A DNA stretch of 23,713 bases. It comes from a virus. The notes under the pieces are model-generated. The model saw nothing but the letters and a program-made list of their open reading frames with translations. It had not been told where the DNA came from and made no database searches. The position numbers and the translations under genes were made by a program. How positions within the stretch are numbered: the stretch's first letter is position 1; every line of letters starts with the position of its first letter. The stretch is taken from the IMG/VR virus record IMGVR_UViG_3300042485_002849, positions 1-23,713 of that record; one strand, 5' to 3'. Shown piece by piece: positions 2,837 through 23,713 of the stretch.

Positions 2837-4024
2837 ATGGCAACAAACAGAGCAATGCTTAAAGAAGCAATCGCTGACGCTAAAGCTGTAAAAGAAACAG
2901 CAATAGCAAACGCAAAAGCAGCCCTAGAAGAAGCCTTCACACCTCAACTTAAGTCAATGTTATCAATGAAACTTCAAGAAATGGACCTCGAAGAGGACAA
3001 TTTTGAAGAAGCATACATGTCTAAAAAAGATAAAGATCTTGAAGAAATGTATGATAAAGAAGAAACAAATGAAGAAGTTGATTTAGAAGAGCTTTTGGCT
3101 GAATTAGAAGAGGACGAAATGGAAGAAGGACTTTACGAAGCTGAAGAAACTGAAGAAGAAGAAATATCTGATGAAGAAGAAACAGAAGATGAAGCTGAAC
3201 CAATCGACCTTGAAGACATGACAGATGAAGATCTAAAATCAATGATTGAAGATGTAATCGCGGACATGATTAAATCAGGTGAACTTGAAGGTGGAAACAC
3301 AGAAGAGGAATCTGAAGAAGTAGAAGACGAAGAAGAAGTAAATTTAGAAGAATTATTAAAAGAAATTGAAGAAATGGAAAACGATGAAAAAATGGTTAAT
3401 GAAGTAGATTCAGAACTTACACCTGCAGAATTTAACAAAATGAAAGCTATTGAAGATCAATTAAATGAATCATCAACTACTGCTCTTAATGAAGATCCAG
3501 TTTCAATAGTTCCTGTAGTAGCAGGTATGGTTGCACTTTTTTCTGCAGCTTTCGGAGTACTAAAAGCTCAGGCATATGCTAAAAAAAGAGCAGAAACAGA
3601 CCCAAAATGGAAAAAATGGTACGATGAAGCCGTTAAAACTGGAAAAGATATCAGTGATGCGGGAATGGGTGGTTCAGGAGATCTTGAAGAAGCTTATTCT
3701 ACTATTGAAACCTTAAAGTCTGAATTAAACGAGATCAATTTGTTAAATGCTAAATTGCTTTATACAAACAAAATCTTCAAGTCTAAAACTTTAAATGAAA
3801 ATCAAAAAGTAAAAGTGTTAAGTTCTTTTGACAAAGCTAAAAACGTAGGCGAAGTAAAAATGGTATTTGAAACATTAAATGAGGGAATCAAAGTTTTAAA
3901 AAATACTATTAACGAAAACCTAGGTAGAGCTTCAAAAGGAACAATGGCACCTAACGTTAAAAAACCAATCGTAGAGTCAAACGAGGCATTTTTAAGAATG
4001 CAAAAATTGGCTGGAATTATTTAA
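2837..4024 (+). CDS. 22: Prohead scaffolding core protein, T4 gp22-like
   Basis: This 395-aa protein lies between the protease and the major capsid gene, the T4 gene 22 position. It would form the core on which the capsid shell assembles and then be destroyed by the gp21-like protease. Residues 1-50 are Ala/Lys-rich and helical. About 50-195 are extremely acidic, with runs of Glu and Asp. A hydrophobic stretch (222-242, IVPVVAGMVALFSAAFGVL) is unexpected in a scaffold. About 285-350 carry an ELNEINLLNAKLLYTNKIF segment and a following helical region that I associate with scaffold proteins of marine T4-like phages. The end, FLRMQKLAGII, also fits that group. T4 gp22 is 269 aa, so this is longer. 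AGGA lies 6 nt before the ATG, one of the few Shine-Dalgarno-like sites here. Family assignment is good; the meaning of the hydrophobic segment is open. Confidence 0.85.
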   Translation: MATNRAMLKEAIADAKAVKETAIANAKAALEEAFTPQLKSMLSMKLQEMDLEEDNFEEAYMSKKDKDLEEMYDKEETNEEVDLEELLAELEEDEMEEGLYEAEETEEEEISDEEETEDEAEPIDLEDMTDEDLKSMIEDVIADMIKSGELEGGNTEEESEEVEDEEEVNLEELLKEIEEMENDEKMVNEVDSELTPAEFNKMKAIEDQLNESSTTALNEDPVSIVPVVAGMVALFSAAFGVLKAQAYAKKRAETDPKWKKWYDEAVKTGKDISDAGMGGSGDLEEAYSTIETLKSELNEINLLNAKLLYTNKIFKSKTLNENQKVKVLSSFDKAKNVGEVKMVFETLNEGIKVLKNTINENLGRASKGTMAPNVKKPIVESNEAFLRMQKLAGII

Positions 4025-7958: not shown

Positions 7959-8321
7959 ATGGCAAATTTAACATTAAGACAAACAAAAGGTTCTCCTCTT
8001 ACTATTGATGAAATGGATGGTAATTTTGAGTATTTTACAGGCTCATATACAAATACCGGAACTATTACAGCACAAAGATTTAGTGGATCTTTTACAGGAT
8101 CTTTACAGGGTACTGCACAAACAGCATCTTACGTTCAAAATGTTATAAGTTCAAGCTTTGCTACAACAGCATCTTATTTTAATGGTGGGATATTTTTAAA
8201 CCCAACCACCCAATCTTTAGCTTTAACTATCTCTTCAGGATATAATGCATCATTAACAGGACCAATATATAATTCAAGTTCCATTATTATTGAAATGGGT
8301 GCTAGATTAGTAATACTATAA
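7959..8321 (+). CDS. Short fibre-module protein (stub sharing the N-terminus of the 776-aa fibre)
   Basis: The first 57 or so of 120 residues are almost identical to the N-terminus of the large fibre gene at 8917: MANLTLRQTKGSPLTIDEMD, then NFEYFTGSYTNTG and SGSFTGSLQGTAQTASYV. After one SSFATTASY repeat it turns into a short unrelated end (LTISSGYNASLTGPIYNSSS) and stops. DNA identity is very high, about 7 mismatches over 189 bp counted by eye, so this is a recent duplication. It may be a minor fibre or collar component using the same attachment site, or a truncated former fibre. The frame is intact. Confidence 0.72.
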   Translation: MANLTLRQTKGSPLTIDEMDGNFEYFTGSYTNTGTITAQRFSGSFTGSLQGTAQTASYVQNVISSSFATTASYFNGGIFLNPTTQSLALTISSGYNASLTGPIYNSSSIIIEMGARLVIL

Positions 8322-8907: not shown

Positions 8908-9086
8908 TAAAATAAAATGGCAGATTTAACATTAAGACAAACAAAAGGTTCTCCTCTTACTATTGATGAAATGGATGGTAATTTTGAATACTTTACAGGC
9001 TCATATACAAATACCGGAATCATTACAGCACAAGGATTTAGTGGATCTTTTACAGGATCTTTACAGGGTACTGCACAAACAGCATC
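8898..9086 (+). repeat. 189-bp duplication shared with 7940-8128
   Basis: The two blocks align without gaps at an offset of 958 bp, with 7 mismatches counted by eye. Each covers the regulatory motif, the A-rich leader and the first 56 or so codons of a fibre-module gene. Similarity ends abruptly inside the TASYV repeat, where the coding regions diverge. The direct repeat could support recombination that deletes or swaps the intervening 8410 gene and one fibre end. Confidence 0.85.
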
Positions 9087-11247
9087 ATATGTAACCTTAG
9101 CACAAACTGCTTCGTTTATAACAGGTTCAGTATTTACAAACACAAACCCCGCACTAAGTGCTTCCTTTGCTGTATCTGCATCAAGAGCTATAAGCTCAAG
9201 CTTTGCAACAACATCTTCATTTGTTCAAACAGCACAAACTGCTAGTTACGTTTTAAATACTATAAGTTCGAGCTTTGCTTCGACTGCATCCTTTGTTCAA
9301 AATGCTCAAACAGCATCTTATGTACAAAATACTATAAGCTCAAGCTTTGCTCAAACAGCATCTTATGTACAAAATACTATAAGCTCAAGCTTTGCTCAAA
9401 CAGCATCTTATGTACAAAATACTATAAGCTCAAGCTTTGCTCAAACTGCATCTTATGTACAAAATGCTCAAACAGCATCTTACGTTCAAAATGCTCAAAC
9501 TGCTTCATATGTTCAAAATGCAGTAAGTTCAAGCTTTGCTTCAACTGCTTCATTTGTAAGAACAGCACAAACTGCTTCATACGTTTTAAATGCTGTAAGT
9601 GCTTCATATGCAACAGTTGCACAAACCGTTTTAAATGCCTCATTATTCGCACTAGTTGGATCCCCTAACACTTTTATTAGTAATCAAACAATTCAAGGTT
9701 ATTTAACTCTACAAGGTTCTTTAAATCAAGGTACTGGTGTAACAAATGGAAACGCTTCACACGCACAAGGAAATACTACAACAGCAGGATACTACGGTTA
9801 CTACTCCGGTACAACAGGTGTAACCGCAGGAGTATTTGAATTAGAAGCAGCATATGGTGATTTAACTTCTATCTTTACTTCAAGTTCATTTGCATTATTT
9901 GATGATCCATCGGGACTTATTAATGGAACACCTAGCGTAATTAAATCTCAAGTTTCATCATCGATTTATATTACTGGAGGGATTTATGATTATACCGAAG
10001 TAACCCTTTTTGATACTACAATTGATTCAATAAGCACCGGATTAGTTGTAGGTATTTTTGGTACTCCCCAACCAGCAGGAGCTAATTATTCTATAGGAAA
10101 CTATTCACACGCAGAAGGTGAATCTACAACAACAATTGGACTTGCTTCACACGCAGAAGGTTATGGTACATTAGCACAAGGATATTATTCACACGCTGAA
10201 GGTAATAACACAATAGCACAAGGAAATTACCAACATGTACAAGGTCAATTTAACCAATCATCCTCAGCACAATCTGCATTTATAGTAGGAAACGGCACAT
10301 CAAACTCATCTAGATCAAATCTAATCTTTGCTTCAGGTTCACAAGTACAAATTACAGGATCTTTAACAGTATCTGGATCAGGTACATTTATAAACATAGG
10401 TCCCGCAATATTTAGTGGAAGTATTACATCAACTTCAGGATTTACCGGGTCATTGCAAGGCACAGTAACAACTGCTTCATATGCAACAACATCATCATAT
10501 GCCGCAACTGCTTCATTATTATTAGGTAGTGTTACAAGTGCTTCATATGCTGCAACGGCATCATATGCTACTGTTGCCCAAACTTTATTAGGAAGTGTTA
10601 CAAGTGCTTCTTATGCAGCAACTTCTTCATTATCTAATGAAACAATAGGAGCGGGAGATACCGGCAATACCAATGGGGGTGAAATTCAGTTTAGAGGTAG
10701 TTTTGGTCCTGGATCTCCTAATGGAAAAACCACCTATTCCTCAGCATTTATATGGGATGGTGCTTATAATGGTTTATTAATAGCTGATCCTAATACAACC
10801 TTTACACAAAATGGAGGATATTATTACCTACAAGTTGGAACTGATGTGATATCAGCTGGTAATTATTCAGTATCATTTGGTTCTAGTTCTTATGCACAAG
10901 GTGAAGGTTCATTTACTCATGGTAAAGCAATTACAGCAAATGGAGAATATTCTCATGCTGAAGGTTTAGGTACCATAGCATCTGGATCTTATCAACATGT
11001 TCAAGGTAGATTTAACACTCAAGGAGATTCTACTTCCTTAATGATTGTAGGTAATGGTACAGCTGATGGTTCTCGTAAAGATGCATTCAAAGTAAGAATA
11101 TCCGGTTCAATTGTTTTACCAACTACCCAATCAGCTGCTCCATCTTGGACAGGAACGGATGGAGAAATTATTCCTGCAACTGTAGAAGGTAAATACCTTC
11201 TTTATATGTGGATGTCAGGTGCTTGGAGATCAGGTTCATTTGTATAA
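8917..11247 (+). CDS. Large repeat-built tail fibre / adhesin
   Basis: The 776-aa protein is a fibrous surface protein. Residues 1-57 are the attachment module shared with the 7959 gene. About 58-220 consist of 9- and 15-residue repeats built from TASYVQN and ISSSFA, including three identical 15-residue copies (131-175). Then come YadA-head-like repeats: SHAQG at 281, SHAEG at 397, 411 and 425 (14-residue spacing), then QHVQG near 439. A second TASYA-type repeat zone lies near 505-570. A second head-like set follows (THG near 665, SHAEG 679, QHVQG 693). The end (TDGEIIPATVEGKYLLYMW) resembles fibre tips. Such repeats form trimeric left-handed beta-rolls in adhesins. No endosialidase-type chaperone domain is visible. 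It is probably a trimeric host-recognition fibre. A strong terminator follows. Confidence 0.85.
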   Translation: MADLTLRQTKGSPLTIDEMDGNFEYFTGSYTNTGIITAQGFSGSFTGSLQGTAQTASYVTLAQTASFITGSVFTNTNPALSASFAVSASRAISSSFATTSSFVQTAQTASYVLNTISSSFASTASFVQNAQTASYVQNTISSSFAQTASYVQNTISSSFAQTASYVQNTISSSFAQTASYVQNAQTASYVQNAQTASYVQNAVSSSFASTASFVRTAQTASYVLNAVSASYATVAQTVLNASLFALVGSPNTFISNQTIQGYLTLQGSLNQGTGVTNGNASHAQGNTTTAGYYGYYSGTTGVTAGVFELEAAYGDLTSIFTSSSFALFDDPSGLINGTPSVIKSQVSSSIYITGGIYDYTEVTLFDTTIDSISTGLVVGIFGTPQPAGANYSIGNYSHAEGESTTTIGLASHAEGYGTLAQGYYSHAEGNNTIAQGNYQHVQGQFNQSSSAQSAFIVGNGTSNSSRSNLIFASGSQVQITGSLTVSGSGTFINIGPAIFSGSITSTSGFTGSLQGTVTTASYATTSSYAATASLLLGSVTSASYAATASYATVAQTLLGSVTSASYAATSSLSNETIGAGDTGNTNGGEIQFRGSFGPGSPNGKTTYSSAFIWDGAYNGLLIADPNTTFTQNGGYYYLQVGTDVISAGNYSVSFGSSSYAQGEGSFTHGKAITANGEYSHAEGLGTIASGSYQHVQGRFNTQGDSTSLMIVGNGTADGSRKDAFKVRISGSIVLPTTQSAAPSWTGTDGEIIPATVEGKYLLYMWMSGAWRSGSFV
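9307..9441 (+). repeat. Three perfect 45-bp tandem repeats in the fibre gene
   Basis: Units 9307-9351, 9352-9396 and 9397-9441 are identical at DNA level, each coding QTASYVQNTISSSFA. Degenerate copies flank them, with a 27-bp sub-unit coding AQTASYVQN at 9442-9520. Perfect identity at synonymous sites means recent copying. As 45 is a multiple of 3, gain or loss of a unit keeps the frame and changes only fibre length. Confidence 0.93.
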
Positions 11248-14456: not shown

Positions 14457-16637
14457 ATGGAGGAAACAATTGTATCACCTGGTGTACTAGCTATAGAAAA
14501 TGATCAATCATTTATTACTACTGCACAACCCATCCAAGCTGGGGCTGCTATTATAGGCCCAACAGTTAAAGGTAAAGTAGGGATACCTACATTATGTACT
14601 ACTTATGGCGAATATTTAAATAAGTATGGTTCCACATTTTATAGCGGTAGCCAAAATTATTCATATTTTACATCTATTGCCGCATATAATTATTTTAATA
14701 ATGGAGGAAGATCATTATTAGTAACACGAGTAGTAAGTGGAAGTACAATTGTTGATTGGACACCTGCTACTTCCTCTAAAATACCTACTCATATTGCAGA
14801 AACATCAGCCTCTATAGAATTTTATTATGATTTTGGTTTTGGATTTTCTTCTGCTTTTGATGAATCATTTTTCCCATCTCAATATGAACATTTAGAATCT
14901 ATTATCATAAATGGAGTTCATATATATTACCAAGGTACTCCACCAACTAATTCTCCAACTAGCCTATACATAAATACAGGATCATTTACTAGTTTAACAA
15001 TGACTGATTATGTTGTATCAACATCAATAGCTATAAATGTTAGTAGCTCTTCAGATATGTATACTTCATCATTACAGTACATTACAGCAAGCTCAGTTTC
15101 CCACCCAGATTATGGTCAACCTGGAGAATACCTTCGTTTGATGGCTACTCACCCGGATGGAGAAGTTGGAAATACTTATTACATAGCTGCTGATTATACT
15201 GATCAAGAAACTATTCTTCAATATTTTACTGGAGGATCTAATACCGAATGTTTTGTACTAGAAACATTTAATGAAGGTATAATAATGAATAGTACAGGTC
15301 CTACAGGATCATATGGTACATTATTGAGTGGATCTGCTGAAAATTATAGATGGCAAATAGTTCCTGTAAGTATTAATGATGGAACTTTTAATTTAATAAT
15401 TAGACAAGGAAATGATACAAATCTTTCCCCATCAATTTTAGAAAATTGGGGACCTTTATCACTAGATCCTTTTGCTTCAAATTATATTGAAAAAGTAATA
15501 GGTAATCAAGTTGAAACAATTGTTCAAGATGAAGATGAATATTATGTTGAATTAATAGGTAGCTATCCAAATCAATCTAATTATATAAGAGTTAAATCTG
15601 TTTTATATCCTACCCCTAATTATTTAGATAATAATGGATTCCCAGAAGCACAATATGAAAATTATCTTCCTAAAAAAAGAACAGGAACTTTTGGAGATGG
15701 TAAAGGAACAAACATTCCAAGTGGTATTCCGGGATTATATTATGATAAAATAACTGCAAATAATATTCAAGGTCTTACTGCAAATTCATATAACGAAGCA
15801 GTTTCTTTACTTTCGAATAAAGATGCATATAAATATAACATCCTAATAGCCCCAGGACTAATAAGTAGTTTTGGTGCTCCATCTACAACAGTCATTAATA
15901 ACATTAATACTTTAGTTAGAGAACGAGGAGATACAATGACTATTATGGATTTAGTTCCATATAATACTTCTTTAAATACTACTATAGCAGAATCAATTTC
16001 TTACAATACATCATATGTTGCTACATACTGGCCTTGGTTAAAAACTGTTGATCCTAATTTAGGAACTCAAGTTTGGGTTCCTGCTTCAACTATGATGATA
16101 GGAGTATATGCTCAAAATGATAATATTGCGGCTCCTTGGTTTGCTCCTGCTGGTATAAATAGGGGGGTTTTAGAAAATGTTGTTCAAGCAGAACGTTTTT
16201 TAACTCAAGGAAATAGAGATAAATTATATCAAGCAAATATAAATCCGATTGCAACTTTTCCCACTACAGGAGTAGTAGTATTTGGCCAAAAAACTTTACA
16301 AAAGAAAAAAAGTGCACTTGATCGTGTAAATGTAAGACGTTTATTAATTGAATTAAAAAACTATATTTCTCAAGTAGCAGATACATTTGTATTTGAACAA
16401 AATGATGACAATACAAGAAGCGCATTATCTTCAATCATTAATTCCTATTTAGCAACTATCCAACAACAACAAGGATTATCAGAATTTAGATTAATAATGG
16501 ATTCTTCAAATAATCCCCCAGCGGTTGTAGATCAAAACCAATTAATAGGTCAAATATATTTAAAACCTATAAGATCAGTTGAATTTATTCTTTTAGATTT
16601 CAATATACTCCCTACAGGTGCAACATTCCCAGGTTAA
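14457..16637 (+). CDS. 18: Tail sheath protein, T4 gp18-like, first paralogue
   Basis: The 726-aa protein is the contractile sheath subunit (T4 gp18 is 659 aa). The N-terminus has the family start VSPGVLAIENDQSF, AGAAIIGPTVKG, and YSYFTSIAAYNYFNNGGRSL then VTRV. A variable middle (about 100-330) should be the surface domain. The conserved C-terminal half contains YWPWLKTVDP, PWFAPAGINRGV, INPIATFPTTGVVVFGQKTL, then SALDRVNVRRLLIELKNYI, DQNQLIGQIYLKP and LPTGATFP, the segments that form the inner sheath layer. Its closest relative in the window is the next gene. Each has its own leader and candidate promoter. Confidence 0.94.
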   Translation: MEETIVSPGVLAIENDQSFITTAQPIQAGAAIIGPTVKGKVGIPTLCTTYGEYLNKYGSTFYSGSQNYSYFTSIAAYNYFNNGGRSLLVTRVVSGSTIVDWTPATSSKIPTHIAETSASIEFYYDFGFGFSSAFDESFFPSQYEHLESIIINGVHIYYQGTPPTNSPTSLYINTGSFTSLTMTDYVVSTSIAINVSSSSDMYTSSLQYITASSVSHPDYGQPGEYLRLMATHPDGEVGNTYYIAADYTDQETILQYFTGGSNTECFVLETFNEGIIMNSTGPTGSYGTLLSGSAENYRWQIVPVSINDGTFNLIIRQGNDTNLSPSILENWGPLSLDPFASNYIEKVIGNQVETIVQDEDEYYVELIGSYPNQSNYIRVKSVLYPTPNYLDNNGFPEAQYENYLPKKRTGTFGDGKGTNIPSGIPGLYYDKITANNIQGLTANSYNEAVSLLSNKDAYKYNILIAPGLISSFGAPSTTVINNINTLVRERGDTMTIMDLVPYNTSLNTTIAESISYNTSYVATYWPWLKTVDPNLGTQVWVPASTMMIGVYAQNDNIAAPWFAPAGINRGVLENVVQAERFLTQGNRDKLYQANINPIATFPTTGVVVFGQKTLQKKKSALDRVNVRRLLIELKNYISQVADTFVFEQNDDNTRSALSSIINSYLATIQQQQGLSEFRLIMDSSNNPPAVVDQNQLIGQIYLKPIRSVEFILLDFNILPTGATFPG

Positions 16638-16661
16638 TAATATATTTTGAAAAAAAATTTA

Positions 16662-16671
16662 ATATTTATAA
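16662..16671 (+). promoter_or_regulatory. ATATTTATAA motif, candidate late promoter (copy 6)
   Basis: Exact copy ending 12 nt before the ATG at 16684, between the two sheath genes, so the second sheath could be expressed separately. Confidence 0.6.
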
Positions 16672-16683
16672 TAAAAAAATAAA

Positions 16684-18804
16684 ATGGCATCTTTTACAGT
16701 ATCACCAGGAGTAACAACTAATGAAATAGATCAAACTTTTTTAACAGGACAACCTGTACAAGCAGGAGCTGCTATTATAGGTCCAACAGTTAAAGGTCCT
16801 TATGAAATCCCAACAGTAGTAACTTCATATTCACAATATGTATCATTATTTGGAGATACTTTTATAAGTGGAGGTATAAATTATTCATATTTAACTTCAA
16901 TTTCCGCATATAATTACTTTAATTATGGAGGATCTTCATTATTAGTAGCTAGAGTAGCAAGTGGATCATTTACTTCTGCAACATCTTCTCTTCCTAATAC
17001 TGTAATAGCATCACCAGGTAACACCTCATCAATTTCTATTAATGTTTCTACTATATTTACAGGAAGTGCAATATCAGACTTTATAGCTTTTCAATTTAAA
17101 TCATCAGATAATGATTGGTGGATTGCTCCAAATTCTCTTGACATTAATGTAAATGGTAATTCATTAGATTATTATTATACTTCAAGTGGAGCAACAACAA
17201 ATGATAATTATGATAATTATATTAGTGCTGTTGTAAGTACAATTAATGATCCTGAAAATGATTTTAAAAATGTATTAAAAATAACCGCTAGTTACTCATC
17301 CCCAACATTAACAATTAAAGCAATTAATGGAGGTAATAGTTTAAATGGTCTTGAAATTAGAAAAAATGCATATATTCAATTTGATGGAACACTAGTAGGA
17401 TCTTTAACAGGAGGAACATCTAATATCACATCAACTGCATTTACTTTAGAAACATTATCTGAAGGAATTATTATGAATAATTCTGGACCAGAAACTAATG
17501 GAGCTTTAGCTAGTGGCTCAAAAGATAATGTACGAATTGAAATTACTAACTCAAATACTTCATCAGGTATATTTAATGTATTAGTTAGACAAGGAAATGA
17601 TACCTTAAATAAAAAAAATATACTTGAATCTTTTAATGGAGTTAATTTAGATCCAAATTCCCCACGTTTTATTTCTCAAGTAATTGGTGATCAAGCATTA
17701 GAATATAACCCAGTAAATGCTCAAATGGAATTATCTGGAGAATATAGAAATAATTCAAAATATATACGAGTTAAAAATATTAATTACCCAACCCCAAATT
17801 ATTTAGATTCAAATGGCAATATTTCTAATGGACTTTATCCTACATACCTACCTATAAATTCTAGCTCTTCATTTTCATCTGCTACAGGTACGCTCTCTGC
17901 AAATGTAGGTACAACAATGTATGATAATATAGGAGTAAATACACAAGGATTAATAGGTAGTGATTATGATAACATGATTAACCTATTTGGAAATCAAGAA
18001 GCATACCAATTTAATACCTTATTCACCCCAGGTTTATTAAAAGAACACCATTCTTCTCAAATATCTCAAATTATTACAAATACTCAAAATAGAGGAGATA
18101 ATTTATATGTAGTAGATTTAGTAGATTATTCAAAAACTGTTCTTCCAACTATAACACAAGCCCTATCAATAAATTCATCATATGCAACTTCATATTGGCC
18201 TTGGGTTCGTATATTTGATCCTGCAACAGGAAAACAAGTATGGGTACCTGCTTCAACTGTAATTCCTGGAGTATATGCTTTTAATGATAAAGTAGCTGCA
18301 CCTTGGTTTGCACCTGCAGGTATGAATCGTGGTGGTTTATCTACAGTATTACAAGCTAAATTTAAATTAACCCAATCAGATAAAGATGCATTATATAGTA
18401 ACAATATAAATCCTTTAGCTACATTACCTAAAAAAGGTGTTGTAGTATTTGGACAAAAAACTTTACAAAAAGAACAATCTGCACTTGATCGTGTAAATGT
18501 AAGACGTTTATTAATTGAATTAAAAAATTATATTCGTCAAATTGCTGATACAGTATTATTTGAACAAAATACAATAGCAACAAGAACTTCATTTGTCGGA
18601 AGAGTAACTCCATTTTTAGAAAGCATTCAACAAAAACAAGGATTATATGCTTATAAAATAATAATGGATGAATCAAATAATGGACCCGCAGTAATTGATC
18701 AAAATCAATTAATAGGACAAATTTTCATTCAACCAACAAGAACAGCAGAATTTATTTCAGTAGATTTTATTTTACTCCCTACAGGAGTTGAATTCCCAGT
18801 GTAA
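16684..18804 (+). CDS. Tail sheath protein, T4 gp18-like, second paralogue
   Basis: This 706-aa protein is a full-length second sheath. It keeps every landmark of the first: VSPGVTTNEIDQTF, AGAAIIGPTVKGP, YSYLTSISAYNYF, YWPWVRIFDP, PWFAPAGMNRGG, GVVVFGQKTLQKEQ, ALDRVNVRRLLIELKNYI, DQNQLIGQIFIQP and LPTGVEFP. The two middles (about 95-330) differ strongly, whereas the C-terminal 120 residues are roughly 60-65% identical by eye. A 47-bp block is identical between 16314-16360 and 18481-18527. Both frames are intact with all conserved segments, so neither looks like a pseudogene. They could form a mixed sheath, alternate sheaths, or one could be specialised for an end ring. Confidence 0.93.
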   Translation: MASFTVSPGVTTNEIDQTFLTGQPVQAGAAIIGPTVKGPYEIPTVVTSYSQYVSLFGDTFISGGINYSYLTSISAYNYFNYGGSSLLVARVASGSFTSATSSLPNTVIASPGNTSSISINVSTIFTGSAISDFIAFQFKSSDNDWWIAPNSLDINVNGNSLDYYYTSSGATTNDNYDNYISAVVSTINDPENDFKNVLKITASYSSPTLTIKAINGGNSLNGLEIRKNAYIQFDGTLVGSLTGGTSNITSTAFTLETLSEGIIMNNSGPETNGALASGSKDNVRIEITNSNTSSGIFNVLVRQGNDTLNKKNILESFNGVNLDPNSPRFISQVIGDQALEYNPVNAQMELSGEYRNNSKYIRVKNINYPTPNYLDSNGNISNGLYPTYLPINSSSSFSSATGTLSANVGTTMYDNIGVNTQGLIGSDYDNMINLFGNQEAYQFNTLFTPGLLKEHHSSQISQIITNTQNRGDNLYVVDLVDYSKTVLPTITQALSINSSYATSYWPWVRIFDPATGKQVWVPASTVIPGVYAFNDKVAAPWFAPAGMNRGGLSTVLQAKFKLTQSDKDALYSNNINPLATLPKKGVVVFGQKTLQKEQSALDRVNVRRLLIELKNYIRQIADTVLFEQNTIATRTSFVGRVTPFLESIQQKQGLYAYKIIMDESNNGPAVIDQNQLIGQIFIQPTRTAEFISVDFILLPTGVEFPV

Positions 18805-18858: not shown

Positions 18859-19347
18859 ATGGCAATTTTAAATCCTCAAGAAATATTTTTTACCGCGTTT
18901 GAACCAAAACAAACAAACCGCTTTATCCTTTATATGGATGGTATACCTTCATTTTTAGTAAAAGGAGTAGGTGGAATAAATGTAGCTCAAACAGCAGTTG
19001 CTCTTAACCACATTAACGTTCAACGTTATGTAAAAGGAAAAACTATTTGGGGTACAATTTCAATGACTTTATATGAATCTATTACTCCATCTGGAGCACA
19101 AGCTGTAATGGAATGGATACGTTTAGGTCACGAATCTGTAACTGGTAGAGATGGTTATTCTGATTTTTATAAGAAAGATTTAACTTTTAATGTTTTAGGT
19201 CCTGTTGGAGATATTGTTTCTGAATGGATAATTAAAGGAGCAGTAATTACAAGTGCTAATTTTGGAGATTATAACTGGGATGATGATGGAACAATAGTAA
19301 ATATTGCTTTAGAAGTACAACCAGATTATTGTATCTTAAACTATTAA
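18859..19347 (+). CDS. 19: Tail tube protein, T4 gp19-like
   Basis: The 162-aa product has the length of T4 gp19 (163 aa) and follows the sheath genes as in T4. Landmarks are a start of NPQEIFFTAFEPKQTNRFIL, then GIPSFLVKGVGGINVAQTAV, a central YVKGKTIWGTISMTLYESI, the helix SGAQAVMEWIRLG, DLTFNVLGPVGDIVSEWII, and a C-terminal DGTIVNIALEVQPDYCILNY. This is the tube fold in which hexameric rings stack to form the DNA channel. A terminator follows, so the tube gene ends its transcription unit. Confidence 0.94.
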   Translation: MAILNPQEIFFTAFEPKQTNRFILYMDGIPSFLVKGVGGINVAQTAVALNHINVQRYVKGKTIWGTISMTLYESITPSGAQAVMEWIRLGHESVTGRDGYSDFYKKDLTFNVLGPVGDIVSEWIIKGAVITSANFGDYNWDDDGTIVNIALEVQPDYCILNY

Positions 19348-19475: not shown

Positions 19476-19847
19476 ATGAAATTAGATAATTTACGTGCGC
19501 TAATAAAAGAAACATTAAACCACCGTTTAACTGAGGAATATCAAGATAAATTTAAAATGATAGGTATGCTTATTACTAACATTGATCTAAGACCCCAAAA
19601 AGAAATATACTCAGATATTCGTTCAATCCCCGGTATTACAGTTATATCATCTAAAGAACCATTAGAATTTAATCAACAAGACCAATCTAAATTTCAAGCA
19701 TTAATGACTGTTAAAGTAGATGGACATCCTTGGATTGCAAAAGGTGGATTTGATAGATCAAAAATGCAAGAAATACGAAAAGAAATATTAAAAGTAAAAG
19801 GAGTTTTATCATTTAATGTAAATCCTGATAATATTACTACTCTTTAA
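19476..19847 (+). CDS. Small protein of unknown function with an LRxLIKE helix
   Basis: This 123-aa protein opens with an amphipathic helix (MKLDNLRALIKETLNHRL). It then shows a pattern that could be a small alpha/beta, ferredoxin-like fold: FKMIGMLITNIDL (strand), KEIYSDIRSIPGI (helix), TVISSKEP (strand), FQALMTVKVD (strand), RSKMQEIRKEILKVKGV (helix), LSFNVNP (strand). The segment 'IRSIPGITVI' recurs in unknown phage proteins. The opening helix resembles one near residue 400 of the 602-aa head-module protein. I cannot assign a function. It starts the transcription unit that carries the hub and overlapping ORF, so a tail-assembly role is possible. Confidence 0.68.
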   Translation: MKLDNLRALIKETLNHRLTEEYQDKFKMIGMLITNIDLRPQKEIYSDIRSIPGITVISSKEPLEFNQQDQSKFQALMTVKVDGHPWIAKGGFDRSKMQEIRKEILKVKGVLSFNVNPDNITTL

Positions 19848-19889: not shown

Positions 19890-20621
19890 ATGGAAGAAAA
19901 ATTTAAATTACCAACAGAAATTATTGAATTACCCTCAAAAGGTTTACTTTACCCTAAAGATTCCGAACTATCAAAAGGTACTATTGAAATAAAATATATG
20001 ACCGCTAAGGAAGAAGATATTTTAACAAACCAAACATTTATTAAAAATGGTACAGTTTTAGATAAACTTTTAAAATCAATAATAACAACTAACATTAACT
20101 TTGATGATTTATTAGTAGGAGATAAAAATGCTATAATGGTAGCTTCTCGTATTTTAGGATATGGATCAGAATACACATTTAATTATTTAGGAGAATCACA
20201 TACTATTGATTTATCTACTTTAGAAAATAAAGAAATTGAAGAAGAATTATATTCAAAAAATATCAATGAATTTGAATTTACTCTCCCCAAATCAGGTAAT
20301 GTTGTTACTTTTAAACTTTTAACTCACAAAGATGAACAAGAAATTAATCGTGAATTAGAAAGTCTTAAAAAAATCAATAAAGATTCATCCCCAGAACTTA
20401 CAACCCGTTTAAAATATCTTATAATTTCAATAAATGGTGAAAAAGAAAAAAAGACAATTAGAGAATTTGTTGATAATTATCTTTTAGCCCAAGATTCACG
20501 GGCACTACGAGAATATATTCGTCGAATTCAACCAGATGTTGATTTAACTTTTTTTCCCGACGGAAGTTCAGATAGAATCAATATCCCAATTGGGGTTAGC
20601 TTTTTTTGGCCTGACTTCTGA
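19890..20621 (+). CDS. 26: Baseplate hub assembly protein, T4 gp26-like
   Basis: The 243-aa product opens LPTEIIELPSKGLLYPKDSE, followed by IEIKYMTAKEEDIL and LDKLLKSIITTNINFDDLL. This layout, a 'LPSKG' turn, a beta strand, then 'MTAKEE' and a helix, is that of the T4 baseplate protein family that includes gp26. The end, INIPIGVSFFWPDF, also fits phage proteins of this kind, which often close with FFWP. T4 gp26 is 208 aa. In some relatives I recall a cysteine-containing element before that end; here it reads DLTFFPDGSSDRINI, without cysteines. The last 74 nt are also open in the frame of the next ORF and contain two T7 runs. Confidence 0.72.
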   Translation: MEEKFKLPTEIIELPSKGLLYPKDSELSKGTIEIKYMTAKEEDILTNQTFIKNGTVLDKLLKSIITTNINFDDLLVGDKNAIMVASRILGYGSEYTFNYLGESHTIDLSTLENKEIEEELYSKNINEFEFTLPKSGNVVTFKLLTHKDEQEINRELESLKKINKDSSPELTTRLKYLIISINGEKEKKTIREFVDNYLLAQDSRALREYIRRIQPDVDLTFFPDGSSDRINIPIGVSFFWPDF

Positions 20622-20895
20622 TACAGCACAAGAAACTAGATTAGCATTATTTACCCAAATCCATCAAATAATTTTTTATGGTAAAGGAGGATATGATTGG
20701 CATACTATTTATAATATGCCAATTTGGCTTCGCCGTTTTACTTTTAAACAAATTAGTGATTATTATCTTGAAGAAAAATCTTCATATGAAAATAAAAAAG
20801 GTAACAAAACAATGATTGATTCTAATGGAAAAGTTAATACTCCTGAGTTTGCTAAGATGTCTCATCAAATAAGACAACCTGCTAAATATAAATAA
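20590..20895 (+). CDS. Small hub/tail assembly protein, perhaps gp51-like; start uncertain
   Basis: This 101-aa frame overlaps the gp26-like gene by 32 nt and opens with TTG. The first in-frame ATG is at the M of MPIWLRRF, about 43 residues in, which would cut a conserved-looking stretch. The key segment is FTQIHQIIFYGKGGYDWHTI, then YNMPIWLRRFTFKQISDYYL. The pattern 'GKGG(F/Y)xxxxxYxMPxxLRRF' marks small proteins that follow the gp26-like gene in aquatic T4-like phages, possibly the hub assembly catalyst gp51 group; I am not certain of that link. The frame is +1 relative to gp26. It may start at TTG, be made by frameshifting as a gp26 fusion, or reflect a sequencing error in a T7 run. Confidence 0.65.
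   Translation: MGLAFFGLTSDTAQETRLALFTQIHQIIFYGKGGYDWHTIYNMPIWLRRFTFKQISDYYLEEKSSYENKKGNKTMIDSNGKVNTPEFAKMSHQIRQPAKYK
20601..20607 (+). other. T7 run, candidate +1 (or -2) ribosomal frameshift site
   Basis: In the gp26-like frame the run reads AGC TTT TTT TGG, five codons before its stop. A +1 slip gives AGC TTT TTT GGC and enters the downstream ORF, joining VSFF to GLTSDT. A similar T7 run sits at 20549-20555 (ACT TTT TTT CCC), just inside the region open in both frames (from 20548). The downstream ORF has no usable ATG start, which is why the slip is considered. Confidence 0.4.
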
Positions 20896-20935: not shown

Positions 20936-23713
20936 ATGGCTCTTGGAAACGCAGCAGAAGAAGCTAAAAAGAAATTTGAAAAATTAAAAAAAGTAATTAA
21001 AGAATTAGGAGACGATATTAACGACCTTAATCTTAATGATACAGTAAAAGATGCAGCGGCTGTTGAACTTGCACTAAAAGGAGCAAATGAAAGATTAAGA
21101 GAAATGCAAGCTGATGTTAATTCTATAAATGATTCTTTTAGAAAAACAGTTAATTCAATTAAAATAGGAAACGAAGGATTACTTCGAGCAAAAGGTTCTT
21201 TTTCTAGACTTACTAGTCTAGCAAGTGATTTAGAATATCACATGAAAGGATCTAATAAACTTTCCGTAGAACAATTAAAATTAATAAAAGAACAAGCTAA
21301 TCAAGAAAAAAGACGATTAGAAAGAAATTTAAAACAACTTATAGCTGATAAATCAATCCTAGAATCAGAAGGAAATCAAGCAGATAAAATTAAAGAAATT
21401 GAAAAAGCTATTGAGGTTTCTAATAATCTTTTACAAGCTCAAAATAAAGAATTTACTGATTTAATTAAAAGCACTGAAATTTTAACTTTTAAACAAGAGA
21501 ATTTAAGTAATGCTATGGGTTTAGGAGGTGTAGCTTTAGAGGGGATGCTTGGTTCAATGGATGCATTAGGGATGAGTAAATTAACTGCAAGATTAGGGTT
21601 AAATGAAGCTAAGCAAAAGATGGAGGAAATGGCTGAGGAACTTACTGATGGAGGAAAGATAGCAGCTACCATAGGTGATAGATTTAAAATTATGGGAGCC
21701 GGAATAGCATCTATGGGTTCAAATCTTAGTAAAAATCTTACTTCTGCTGAAGCTATAATAGTAGAAATGGCTGCTGCTTTAAAAATTGCAGATGATGGTG
21801 CTGGAGACATGGCTAAAAAAATGAATCTAACTTATGGGGAAGCATTAAATACCCGTAGAGAATTAGGAAACATGGCTGCTATGTCTGGAGATGTTGCTTT
21901 AAATACTAAAAATCTTCAAGAATCATATATGGCTGTAGGTGCTGCTTTAGGTACTAATGTTATGTTAAATGAAAAAGATTTAACTACTATGACTAAATTA
22001 GTAAGTCAAGCAGGGTTTCAACATAGTGAATTAATGGAAATTCAAAAACTATCTTTATCTCAAGGAAAAAGTTTAGAAGATAATACTAAAGAAATTTTAG
22101 GAGGTGCTGAAGCATACGCTTCTAGAAGAGGTACAATAGTTAATGAAAAAGAAGTTTTAAAAGAAGTTAATAAAATGTCAGCATCTTTAAAGTTGTCATT
22201 AGGGGGTAGTGCGGATAAAATGTCACAAGCAGTAGTACAAGCAAAAATGTTTGGTTTAACTCTTGAACAAGCTGCTAGCATGTCTTCAAGTTTACTTCAA
22301 TTTGAATCTTCTATTGAAAATGAATTAAGTGCTGAATTATTACTTGGTAAAGATTTAAATTTTGAAAAAGCAAGACAATTAGCCTTAAATAATGATATAG
22401 CTGGAGCTGCTGAGGAAATAGCTAAACAAGTAGGTACATCCGCAGATTTTGCTAACATGAATGCAATCCAACAAGAAGCAATAGCAAAAGCAGCAGGTTT
22501 AACAAAAGATGAATTAGCTCAATCTTTAATAGATAGAGAAGCAATGGCTGCACTAAATGGGGTTGAAGGTGATACTGCAAAAGAAAGATTTAATAATTTA
22601 GTTAAACAAGTAGGAATGGAAGAAGCTAAAAAACGCTTAGGAGAGGAAGGATTAGCTAACCAAATGGAACAACAAAATGTACAAGAAAGATTTGCTCAAG
22701 CTACAGAAAAACTTAAAGAAATATTTGTCCAAATAGCAGAACCTATCCTAGCAATTGTTTCCCCATTAATGAATATAGTTAGCAGCATACTCCCAGCAAT
22801 CAGCATACTTTTACAACCTATAGTATGGGCTTTTCAGTTAGTAGCAGATGGAATAAATTTTGCTGTAGAAGGTGCTAAAAAATTACTTGGAGTATTTACA
22901 GGAACAACAAAAGAATTAGGATTTTGGGAAGGTTTATTAGGCGGAATATTATTAATATTTGGTAGTATGAAAGTTATTAGTTATGCTATTTTAGGATACA
23001 CTAAACTATCTACCTTTTTAACAGGATCATTAGCAACAATAAATAAAGTTTTAGAAGCTTCTAATGCAAGAATATTAGCTTCAAAAACAGCAGAAACTGT
23101 TGCAGATGGTACTAAAATAGGATTAGGAACAAGTCTATTAGGTATTTTAGGATTACAAAATGCTGCTAGAGCTTATGGTTTAGCTCAATCTCTTACTGGA
23201 AATACATTAACTGCTATTAGAGCAGCTATGGAACAAACTATATTAGGTAAATTAATTCTACAAGGTGGAGCTTTATTAAAAAATGTAGGCCAATATATTT
23301 TATTAACTATTCAGGCTGGATTTAGATCCGTAGCTGAAAGTACTATATTAGGTTCTTTAATAGCTCAAGGAGGAGCTATAATAAAAAATATAGCAAAAGG
23401 AGCTATTTTCCTTGCCCAAGCAATAGCCACTTCCGTAGCCCAAATATCAGGTAGTGCAGCTTTAAGTTTAGGAGCAACAGCTTTAATAGCGTTAGCTGCA
23501 GGAGCAGCAGCATATGCATTTTTTTCAAGTATGAAGGATGGTGAAATAGATTATAGTAAAGGACCAATAGTAAGTGGTGGCTTTGGCTCAGTTCAATTAG
23601 ATAAAAACGATACTGGTTTCTTTGATAAAAATGGTATTAAAGCAGGAACTGATTTATTTAAAAAAGAAGATAAGGTAGGTATAAATCCAAATAACTCTTC
23701 CCCCCAACAACAA
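20936..23713 (+). CDS. Tail tape measure protein, N-terminal 926 residues (runs off the window)
   Basis: The frame from ATG 20936 is open to the last base with no stop. Residues 1-180 are charged coiled coil (EEAKKKFEKLKKVIKELGDD). About 180-340 are Gly/Ala/Met-rich. About 340-600 are helical with long Ala/Glu/Lys stretches. Hydrophobic segments follow near 602-640 (PILAIVSPLMNIVSSILPA), 664-688 (LLGGILLIFGSMKVISYAIL) and 838-862 (ALSLGATALIALAAGAAAYA). The visible end (SGGFGSVQLDKNDTGFF) resembles a motif common near tape-measure C-termini. This combination is typical of tape measure proteins, which span the tube, set tail length and may form a membrane channel at infection. T4 gp29 is 590 aa, so this is much longer. 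Its place after the hub genes agrees. Confidence 0.88.
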   Translation, partial: MALGNAAEEAKKKFEKLKKVIKELGDDINDLNLNDTVKDAAAVELALKGANERLREMQADVNSINDSFRKTVNSIKIGNEGLLRAKGSFSRLTSLASDLEYHMKGSNKLSVEQLKLIKEQANQEKRRLERNLKQLIADKSILESEGNQADKIKEIEKAIEVSNNLLQAQNKEFTDLIKSTEILTFKQENLSNAMGLGGVALEGMLGSMDALGMSKLTARLGLNEAKQKMEEMAEELTDGGKIAATIGDRFKIMGAGIASMGSNLSKNLTSAEAIIVEMAAALKIADDGAGDMAKKMNLTYGEALNTRRELGNMAAMSGDVALNTKNLQESYMAVGAALGTNVMLNEKDLTTMTKLVSQAGFQHSELMEIQKLSLSQGKSLEDNTKEILGGAEAYASRRGTIVNEKEVLKEVNKMSASLKLSLGGSADKMSQAVVQAKMFGLTLEQAASMSSSLLQFESSIENELSAELLLGKDLNFEKARQLALNNDIAGAAEEIAKQVGTSADFANMNAIQQEAIAKAAGLTKDELAQSLIDREAMAALNGVEGDTAKERFNNLVKQVGMEEAKKRLGEEGLANQMEQQNVQERFAQATEKLKEIFVQIAEPILAIVSPLMNIVSSILPAISILLQPIVWAFQLVADGINFAVEGAKKLLGVFTGTTKELGFWEGLLGGILLIFGSMKVISYAILGYTKLSTFLTGSLATINKVLEASNARILASKTAETVADGTKIGLGTSLLGILGLQNAARAYGLAQSLTGNTLTAIRAAMEQTILGKLILQGGALLKNVGQYILLTIQAGFRSVAESTILGSLIAQGGAIIKNIAKGAIFLAQAIATSVAQISGSAALSLGATALIALAAGAAAYAFFSSMKDGEIDYSKGPIVSGGFGSVQLDKNDTGFFDKNGIKAGTDLFKKEDKVGINPNNSSPQQQ

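Follow-up and report, generated by a model that had tools for sequence, protein, structure and literature searches.

The 23,713-nucleotide stretch analysed here (the window), a 23.7-kb IMG/VR record, contains a T4-type head and tail block. Two overlapping reading frames of this block, ORF A and ORF B, in all probability (about 0.9) encode a tail assembly chaperone in two forms, namely a short form (TAC-N) that ends at the stop codon of ORF A, and a long form (TAC-NC) that would be produced when ribosomes shift into the +1 frame shortly before this stop codon. Comparison of sequences supports the junction itself, the likely direction of the shift, the absence of a common separate start for ORF B, and a coding constraint on the +1 frame.

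Gene order in the window

The genes of the window are arranged in the order head maturation protease, major head protein, PhoH, head-tail adaptor, two tail sheath genes, tail tube, ORF A and ORF B, and tape measure protein. The tail tube gene (18859-19347, + strand) was assigned by its match to the tail tube family PHROG_4542 (E 3.4e-20). The tape measure protein gene (20936-23713, + strand, continuing past the window end) was assigned because its product shares 30% identity (E 2e-55) with the protein annotated as tape measure in Flavobacterium phage immuto, and a PHROG profile search with it returned no PHROG tape-measure match. ORF A starts at 19890, between the tail tube gene and the tape measure gene, which is the position of a G/GT-type chaperone gene. 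One small ORF (19476-19847; 123 amino acids, family unassigned) intervenes between the tube gene and ORF A; it matched nothing in Pfam at E 1 and PHROG families only at E 0.2, and the equivalent position in immuto is without an annotated gene. Furthermore, the two tail sheath genes occur in tandem (14457-18804) and share 45% identity (328/735 columns), and a single sheath gene is found in the stretch of immuto that was compared. Finally, the window encodes a 776-amino-acid protein (8917-11247) with many repeat units of the TASYVQN/SSSFA type, resembling a repetitive fibre or appendage protein, the N-terminus of which, as judged by eye, is shared with the ORF at 7959-8321.

Identity of ORF A

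ORF A (19890-20621, + strand) starts with ATG and encodes 243 amino acids ending in VSFFWPDF. Its product matched the 'baseplate hub' family PHROG_150 (E 2.1e-8), a profile that is also matched by T4 gp26 (E 6.7e-71) and T4 gp51 (E 2.6e-84). The corresponding Pfam comparison, to PF12322 (T4_baseplate), gave an E-value of 0.0018 and 18.5 bits, which is under the gathering cutoff of 24.5 bits; this cutoff was passed by the relatives GXN1 (89.1 bits), LIS04 (85.6 bits), and RM378 (37.6 bits), and PF12322 was not listed for immuto or Mel-JY01 in the Pfam search. Both T4 proteins match PF12322 as well as PHROG_150, and they match each other from residue 18 to residue 162 of gp26, with 20% identity (E 2e-6). 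As hhalign of ORF A against T4 gp26 and gp51, using single sequences, gave no match, the link between ORF A and the T4 family rests on PHROG_150.

Structure prediction was consistent with these assignments. The AlphaFold model of ORF A (pLDDT 89.5) matched the hub subunit of SP-15 and hub assembly proteins of T4-like phages in a library of viral structures. A Foldseek search of the same model against the PDB yielded no significant match (E above 0.6; the HK97 chaperone had an E-value of 1.4 and a probability of 0.28). Re-alignment of the trimmed model with VIA-align to 522 PDB chains preranked by Foldseek placed 3fgx_A first (Z 6.1; 83 residues aligned, rmsd 4.2), followed by YqbN (3klu; Z 5.7, 88 residues, rmsd 4.3) and the HK97 chaperone (2ob9_A; Z 5.2, 79 residues, rmsd 3.3). 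These three chains cover residues 1 to about 100 of ORF A and are effectively tied; their Z values are middling, and with the untrimmed model only one chain reached Z 5. Proteins of the YqbN/XkdN type are presumably phage tail assembly chaperones too. The resemblance of the predicted N-terminus of ORF A to the tail assembly chaperone of HK97 is thus a weak one. In a sequence search of solved structures, no match was found for ORF A, and ORF B gave one match, to adiponectin (E 0.0057), which is apparently unrelated.

Gene order, the PHROG_150 family shared with T4 gp26 and gp51, and the three best re-aligned chains, including the HK97 chaperone, indicate that ORF A probably encodes the short chaperone (TAC-N, similar to lambda gpG) and that ORF A and ORF B together probably encode the long chaperone (TAC-NC, similar to gpGT). 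An earlier reading made from the sequence only had labelled ORF A a hub protein, for which tail assembly chaperone is the better name on these grounds.

The junction between ORF A and ORF B

The downstream frame is open from 20548 to 20895 and is in the +1 relation to ORF A, with which it overlaps over 74 nt (20548-20621). Its first ATG is located at 20716 (the Met of YNMP), and the sole earlier ATG, GTG, or TTG codon is a TTG at 20590, so that the overlap and the lack of an ATG ahead of the YNMP segment were as the sequence-only reading had described them. Two runs of seven T residues occur in the overlap (20549-20555 and 20601-20607). The second of these opens the putative slip block TTTTTTTGGCCTGA (20601-20614, + strand), which is read as TTT TTT TGG CCT GA in the zero frame and as TTT TTT GGC CTG A in the +1 frame. 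The candidate P-site slip codons are UUU UUU (20601-20606, + strand), at which UUU would re-pair with UUU. From there, the +1 frame (20602-20895, + strand) would add a TAC-C domain (FFGLTSDTAQ...YNMPIWLRRF...YK) to ORF A, whereas the part of the +1 frame that is open 5' of the block (20548-20600, + strand) is probably untranslated. In the window, which is AT-rich, TTTTTTTGG was found once, against 1.44 occurrences expected from shuffled windows. Being at chance level, it derives its weight from conservation only, and the comparison across relatives is decisive.

Conservation of the putative slip block among relatives

Two sets of relatives were compared, the first consisting of the best 80 of 153 viral IMG/VR loci found by a search with ORF B and the second of the best 80 of at least 600 IMG/VR loci found by a search with an alignment of ORF A. 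Together, they comprised 160 loci on 159 contigs, one contig being common to both sets (L068 and L164). The +1 relation of A and B was present in all 160 loci compared (best 80 of 153 and best 80 of at least 600). When scored mechanically, 79/80 loci of the first set (best 80 of 153) were +1; in the exception, L067, the frame break is situated upstream in A, and the FFWPD and FFGLT frames are still +1 to each other. In this locus (near 3950-4009), the A frame is broken about 20 codons before its end, with undetermined bases just downstream, which likely represents an assembly error. The second set (best 80 of at least 600) had +1 junctions in 80/80 loci.

The block itself was nearly invariant. 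In the second set (best 80 of at least 600), TTTTTTTGGCCTGA was present in 72/80 loci, TTTCTTTGGCCTGA in four, TTTCTTTACCCTGA in two, and TTTTTTTGGCCTAA and TTTTTTTTCCCTGA in one each, and all eight loci lacking the identical 14-mer retain TTT[C/T]TTT. Among the first-set loci (best 80 of 153), the distinct junctions read TTT TTT TGG CCT GA. For the counts of start codons, conservation, and diversity, the loci of the first set were located by the string of seven T residues, which is thereby presupposed, whereas the junction listing of that set was made independently of this condition; the second set was located by the looser pattern TTT[CT]TT, present in 80/80 loci (best 80 of at least 600). 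Diversity was zero or near zero over the slip block, and the flanks were variable, including many third codon positions. The identity of ORF A to the relatives aligned or listed ranged from 45 to 79%. The comparison of the same junction in related genomes that the sequence-only reading had proposed was hence carried out, with the outcome that a slip site near the end of the upstream gene, a fusion at Phe-Phe, and the +1 relation of the frames were upheld at this level.

A variant of the block bears on two other explanations, both of which depend on the homopolymer. Six of the 80 second-set loci (best 80 of at least 600) and phage immuto have TTT CTT T, with a longest T run of three, and possess the same +1 junction. 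Such natural variants, in which the T run is broken, argue against sequencing error and against polymerase slippage as the common cause. That a sequencing or assembly indel split a single gene has a negligible probability; homopolymer runs are prone to error, but the same T count or the CTT variant recurs both across independent contigs and across complete phage genomes that have been deposited, and none of the relatives compared showed an indel of one base by which the two frames would become one continuous ORF. Slippage of RNA polymerase on the seven T residues, by which some mRNA would be one base shorter, is known from other genes that use transcriptional slippage (PMC5009743) and would find a homopolymer in the window, but given the junctions retained on the interrupted run, it is highly unlikely.

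Probable translation of the +1 frame from the slip site

For the analysis of the +1 frame, 136 distinct junctions (window included) were used, with start codons scored from the previous +1 stop codon to 33 codons past the block. A stop codon was found within the first 33 codons of the +1 frame in 0/136 of these junctions. The length of the +1 frame 5' of the block is not conserved, with at most three open codons in 27/136 junctions. This also concerns the position of the slip. In the window, cognate +1 re-pairing would be possible elsewhere in the overlap, at the first T run or at CCC or GGG, so that the shift could occur there. However, where the first run is located, the +1 frame is closed (by a stop codon within the 16 codons upstream of the slip block) in 49/136 junctions, making a slip at that position unusable in those junctions, and the second block alone is nearly invariant. 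A slip elsewhere in the overlap is therefore extremely unlikely, and of the two T runs noticed in the sequence-only reading, both of which exist, only the second (20601-20607) appears to matter.

Alternatively, ORF B may be a separate protein, started at the TTG at 20590 or by coupling to the termination of ORF A. This reading is very unlikely. It can draw on the TTG of the window and on the presence of an ATG somewhere in the scored stretch of 37/136 distinct junctions. Against it, no ATG, GTG, or TTG occurred in the scored stretch of 27/136 distinct junctions, 23 of which have at most three open codons ahead of the block, and the start positions are not common among the relatives. An ATG-started separate gene, named in the sequence-only reading as a finding that would speak against frameshifting, was thus encountered in part, in that a +1-frame ATG does exist in those 37 junctions, but at no common position. 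A smaller count for the first set, up to Met-Pro, gave a similar picture, with a start codon absent from 16/56 distinct B frames and an ATG in 10/56; between the block and Met-Pro, 47/56 distinct B frames were without a start codon.

The +1 frame ahead of the first Met of ORF B shows the codon-position pattern of a translated sequence. From the block to the first Met, diversity at codon positions 1, 2, and 3 of the +1 frame was 0.256, 0.150, and 0.458 (72 non-redundant sequences), and 0.207, 0.164, and 0.463 in a set of 18 sequences; five windows without Met-Pro, as well as L067 and L149, were left out of the diversity computation. This pattern indicates purifying selection on the +1-frame protein, and translation of the B frame from the slip site, ahead of its first Met, is well supported by the sequence comparison. 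In addition, codon usage at the junction was skewed in the 80 second-set A genes (best 80 of at least 600). CCT represents 42% of their Pro codons, yet it is used at 80/80 junctions; similarly, GAC represents 25% of their Asp codons, yet base +15 is C in 76/80. Both biases fit dual coding, with Pro-Asp in the zero frame over Leu-Thr in the +1 frame, in which CTG AC(n) requires the C. The domain encoded by ORF B is predicted to be helical (mean pLDDT 74.6), and the first helix of the model (residues 6-25) lies wholly ahead of the first Met (residue 39).

Probable direction of the shift and proposed mechanism

The direction of the shift was considered for 12 +1-type sites, hand-picked for variety (the window, L136, L111, L130, L168, immuto, Mel-JY01, LR756508, GXN1, RM378, LIS04, and SP-15). 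Cognate +1 re-pairing (UUU to UUY) is possible at the two block codons in 12/12 of these sites. A -2 slip at the same site would join the same frames with one extra Phe, and such a shift is known for phage Mu (PMC5009743). In the seven-T form, as in the window, re-pairing of UUU with UUU by -2 is as cognate as by +1, and this applies to 6/12 picked sites. In the other six (L136, L111, L130, L082, L084, and L085), cognate -2 re-pairing at the block is absent; the CTT sites L136, L111, L130, and L082 (immuto) would need G.U pairing there, and no -2 pairing at the block exists at LR756508 or GXN1, whereas the +1 shift is cognate at all 12. Cognate -2 pairs are also found elsewhere in some overlaps. 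A -2 shift is accordingly unlikely as an alternative to the +1 shift.

Three kinds of stimulatory signals were looked for. Firstly, folding of 49 clusters revealed no RNA structure downstream of the block beyond the control (mean z of -0.77 downstream, -0.87 upstream, and -1.09 for the control). Secondly, inspection of the conservation table by eye revealed no conserved purine-rich core at the spacing that a stimulator of the Shine-Dalgarno type requires. Thirdly, the slip codon is not followed by a stop codon; in 80/80 second-set loci (best 80 of at least 600), the first codon of the block is succeeded by TTT or CTT and then by TGG, TAC, or TTC, so that the stop codon in the A site that marks RF2-type sites is absent from all of them. 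Certain tailed-phage sites and the influenza site seem to be without stimulatory signals according to the account in PMC5009743.

In the proposed mechanism, of which the slip efficiency, the slipping codon, the pause of the ribosome, and the roles of the chaperone forms are inferred, most ribosomes would read ORF A to its stop codon, yielding TAC-N of 243 amino acids. With Phe-tRNA in the P site at UUU UUU UGG, some ribosomes would slip one base forward, the P-site tRNA re-pairing from UUU to UUU, or, in relatives, from UUU to UUC or from CUU to UUU. Slipped ribosomes would stay in the +1 frame and produce TAC-NC of about 334 amino acids, consisting of TAC-N followed by a C-terminal domain that is helical. 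If the roles parallel those of lambda gpG/gpGT, the short copies may coat the tape measure protein, and the fewer long copies may recruit tail-tube subunits via the extra domain.

Distant relatives

A +1 gene pair of the same kind was found in phages of Flavobacterium, Microcystis, Rhodothermus, Bacillus, Listeria, and Streptococcus, and in the uncultured LR756508. A -1 relation was found in Melnitz (Kyanoviridae), XacN1, Atu_ph07, and the uncultured LR756511, in which T TTT TT(T/C) is present. For these distant pairs, the second frame was taken to be whichever open extension was longer, the homology of the second frame to ORF B being an assumption for most. The candidate slip codons of the distant pairs encode Phe-Phe, or Phe-Leu (CTT and CTA forms), and all fall among the last 24 codons of A. 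On visual inspection, T4 gp26 terminates in EFFELL, and the tail of T4 gp51 contains SISKMIPAER, which resembles the segment TIYNMPIWLRR of ORF B (TAC-C).

A scenario to which we would give even odds is that TAC-N of the gp26-type family ancestrally ended in a slippery Phe-Phe or Phe-Leu site, which came to be read in opposite directions, namely as +1 in the group of the window, Mel-JY01, RM378, LR756508, and SP-15/LIS04/GXN1, and as -1 in Melnitz, XacN1, Atu_ph07, and LR756511, and that this site was replaced by two genes in T4. The UUU-YUU-U of the window's group would, in the same scenario, function in the absence of a stop codon, with neither detectable RNA structure nor an obvious stimulator of the Shine-Dalgarno type.

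Comparison with known systems

Tailed phages are known to make gpG and gpGT by -1, -2, or +1 frameshifting; +1 is very likely used by the myovirus HSTV-2, and T4 is named as an exception to tail-gene frameshifting (PMC5009743). The sequence-only reading drew an analogy with tail genes that give a short and a long product, which holds for the window as far as the sequence goes. It also considered such a strategy plausible but not standard in a T4-type hub gene, whereas ORF A is most likely the tail assembly chaperone gene itself, a gene in which frameshifting is the rule and the +1 direction has been described for some phages (PMC5009743). Frameshifting of the G/GT type, +1 included, is therefore already known, and the system of the window is of a known kind. 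What looks new is a conserved +1 site with a 14-nt block in a T4-type group, and the apparent use, among relatives, of +1 or -1 close to the same terminal Phe-Phe. The literature searched, which did not include Vladimirov et al. 2022, contained no +1 site in a chaperone gene of T4-type phages. That study reportedly identified the chaperones of T4-like phages, its abstract being said to name genes 26 and 51 and frameshifting kept in several T4-like groups.

In common with lambda gpG/gpGT (Xu, Hendrix, Duda 2004, via PMC5009743 and PMC6316719), the window has a pair of genes preceding that for the tape measure protein, as well as a putative C-terminal extension, but the shift is likely +1 in the window and -1 in lambda, and the sequence search of solved structures returned no significant chaperone match. 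T4 gp26 and gp51 belong to the same PHROG_150 family as ORF A, but they are encoded by two separate genes, in contrast to the apparent frameshift in the window. Both are listed as hub assembly chaperones, gp51 being essential and of unknown function (PMC3004832), and some T4-like phages are described as carrying short and long chaperone genes separately (PMC10885494, citing Vladimirov et al. 2022). The chaperone of phage Adele (Vandenendeviridae; PMC12846349) is similar in gene role, gene order, and a conserved poly-T slip motif, but uses the -1 frame and a GTTTTT motif; the same source cites Vladimirov et al. 2022 for poly-T -1 signals in chaperone genes of T4-like phages. The +1 sites of RF2 and influenza PA-X resemble the slip block in a P-site +1 slip on CUU or UUU, the RF2 site being CUU_U, or UUU_U in a minority of species (PMC5009743). 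In contrast to RF2, the slip block has no stop codon in the A site, and the gene concerned is a phage tail gene. Like the slip block, the PA-X +1 site occupies an internal position and does not lie beside a stop codon.

As the same family appears to be frameshifted here, the group of the window ties T4 gp26 and gp51 to the lambda G/GT system, and the occurrence of +1, -1, and two-gene forms offers a natural series for the study of how the direction of recoding evolves. Furthermore, the long chaperone form may be missed in deposited genomes. In immuto (L082, 4163-4273), annotation of the deposited 36-amino-acid hypothetical protein begins at an internal start of the TAC-C frame and leaves the initial part of this domain unannotated. 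In Methylophilales phage Melnitz (L173, 2507-3399), the chaperone gene ends in AGT TTT TTT TAA and the -1 frame is open for 64 codons past the stop codon, so that the gene deposited as 'baseplate hub assembly' (3256-3399) seems to belong to a -1 frameshift product.
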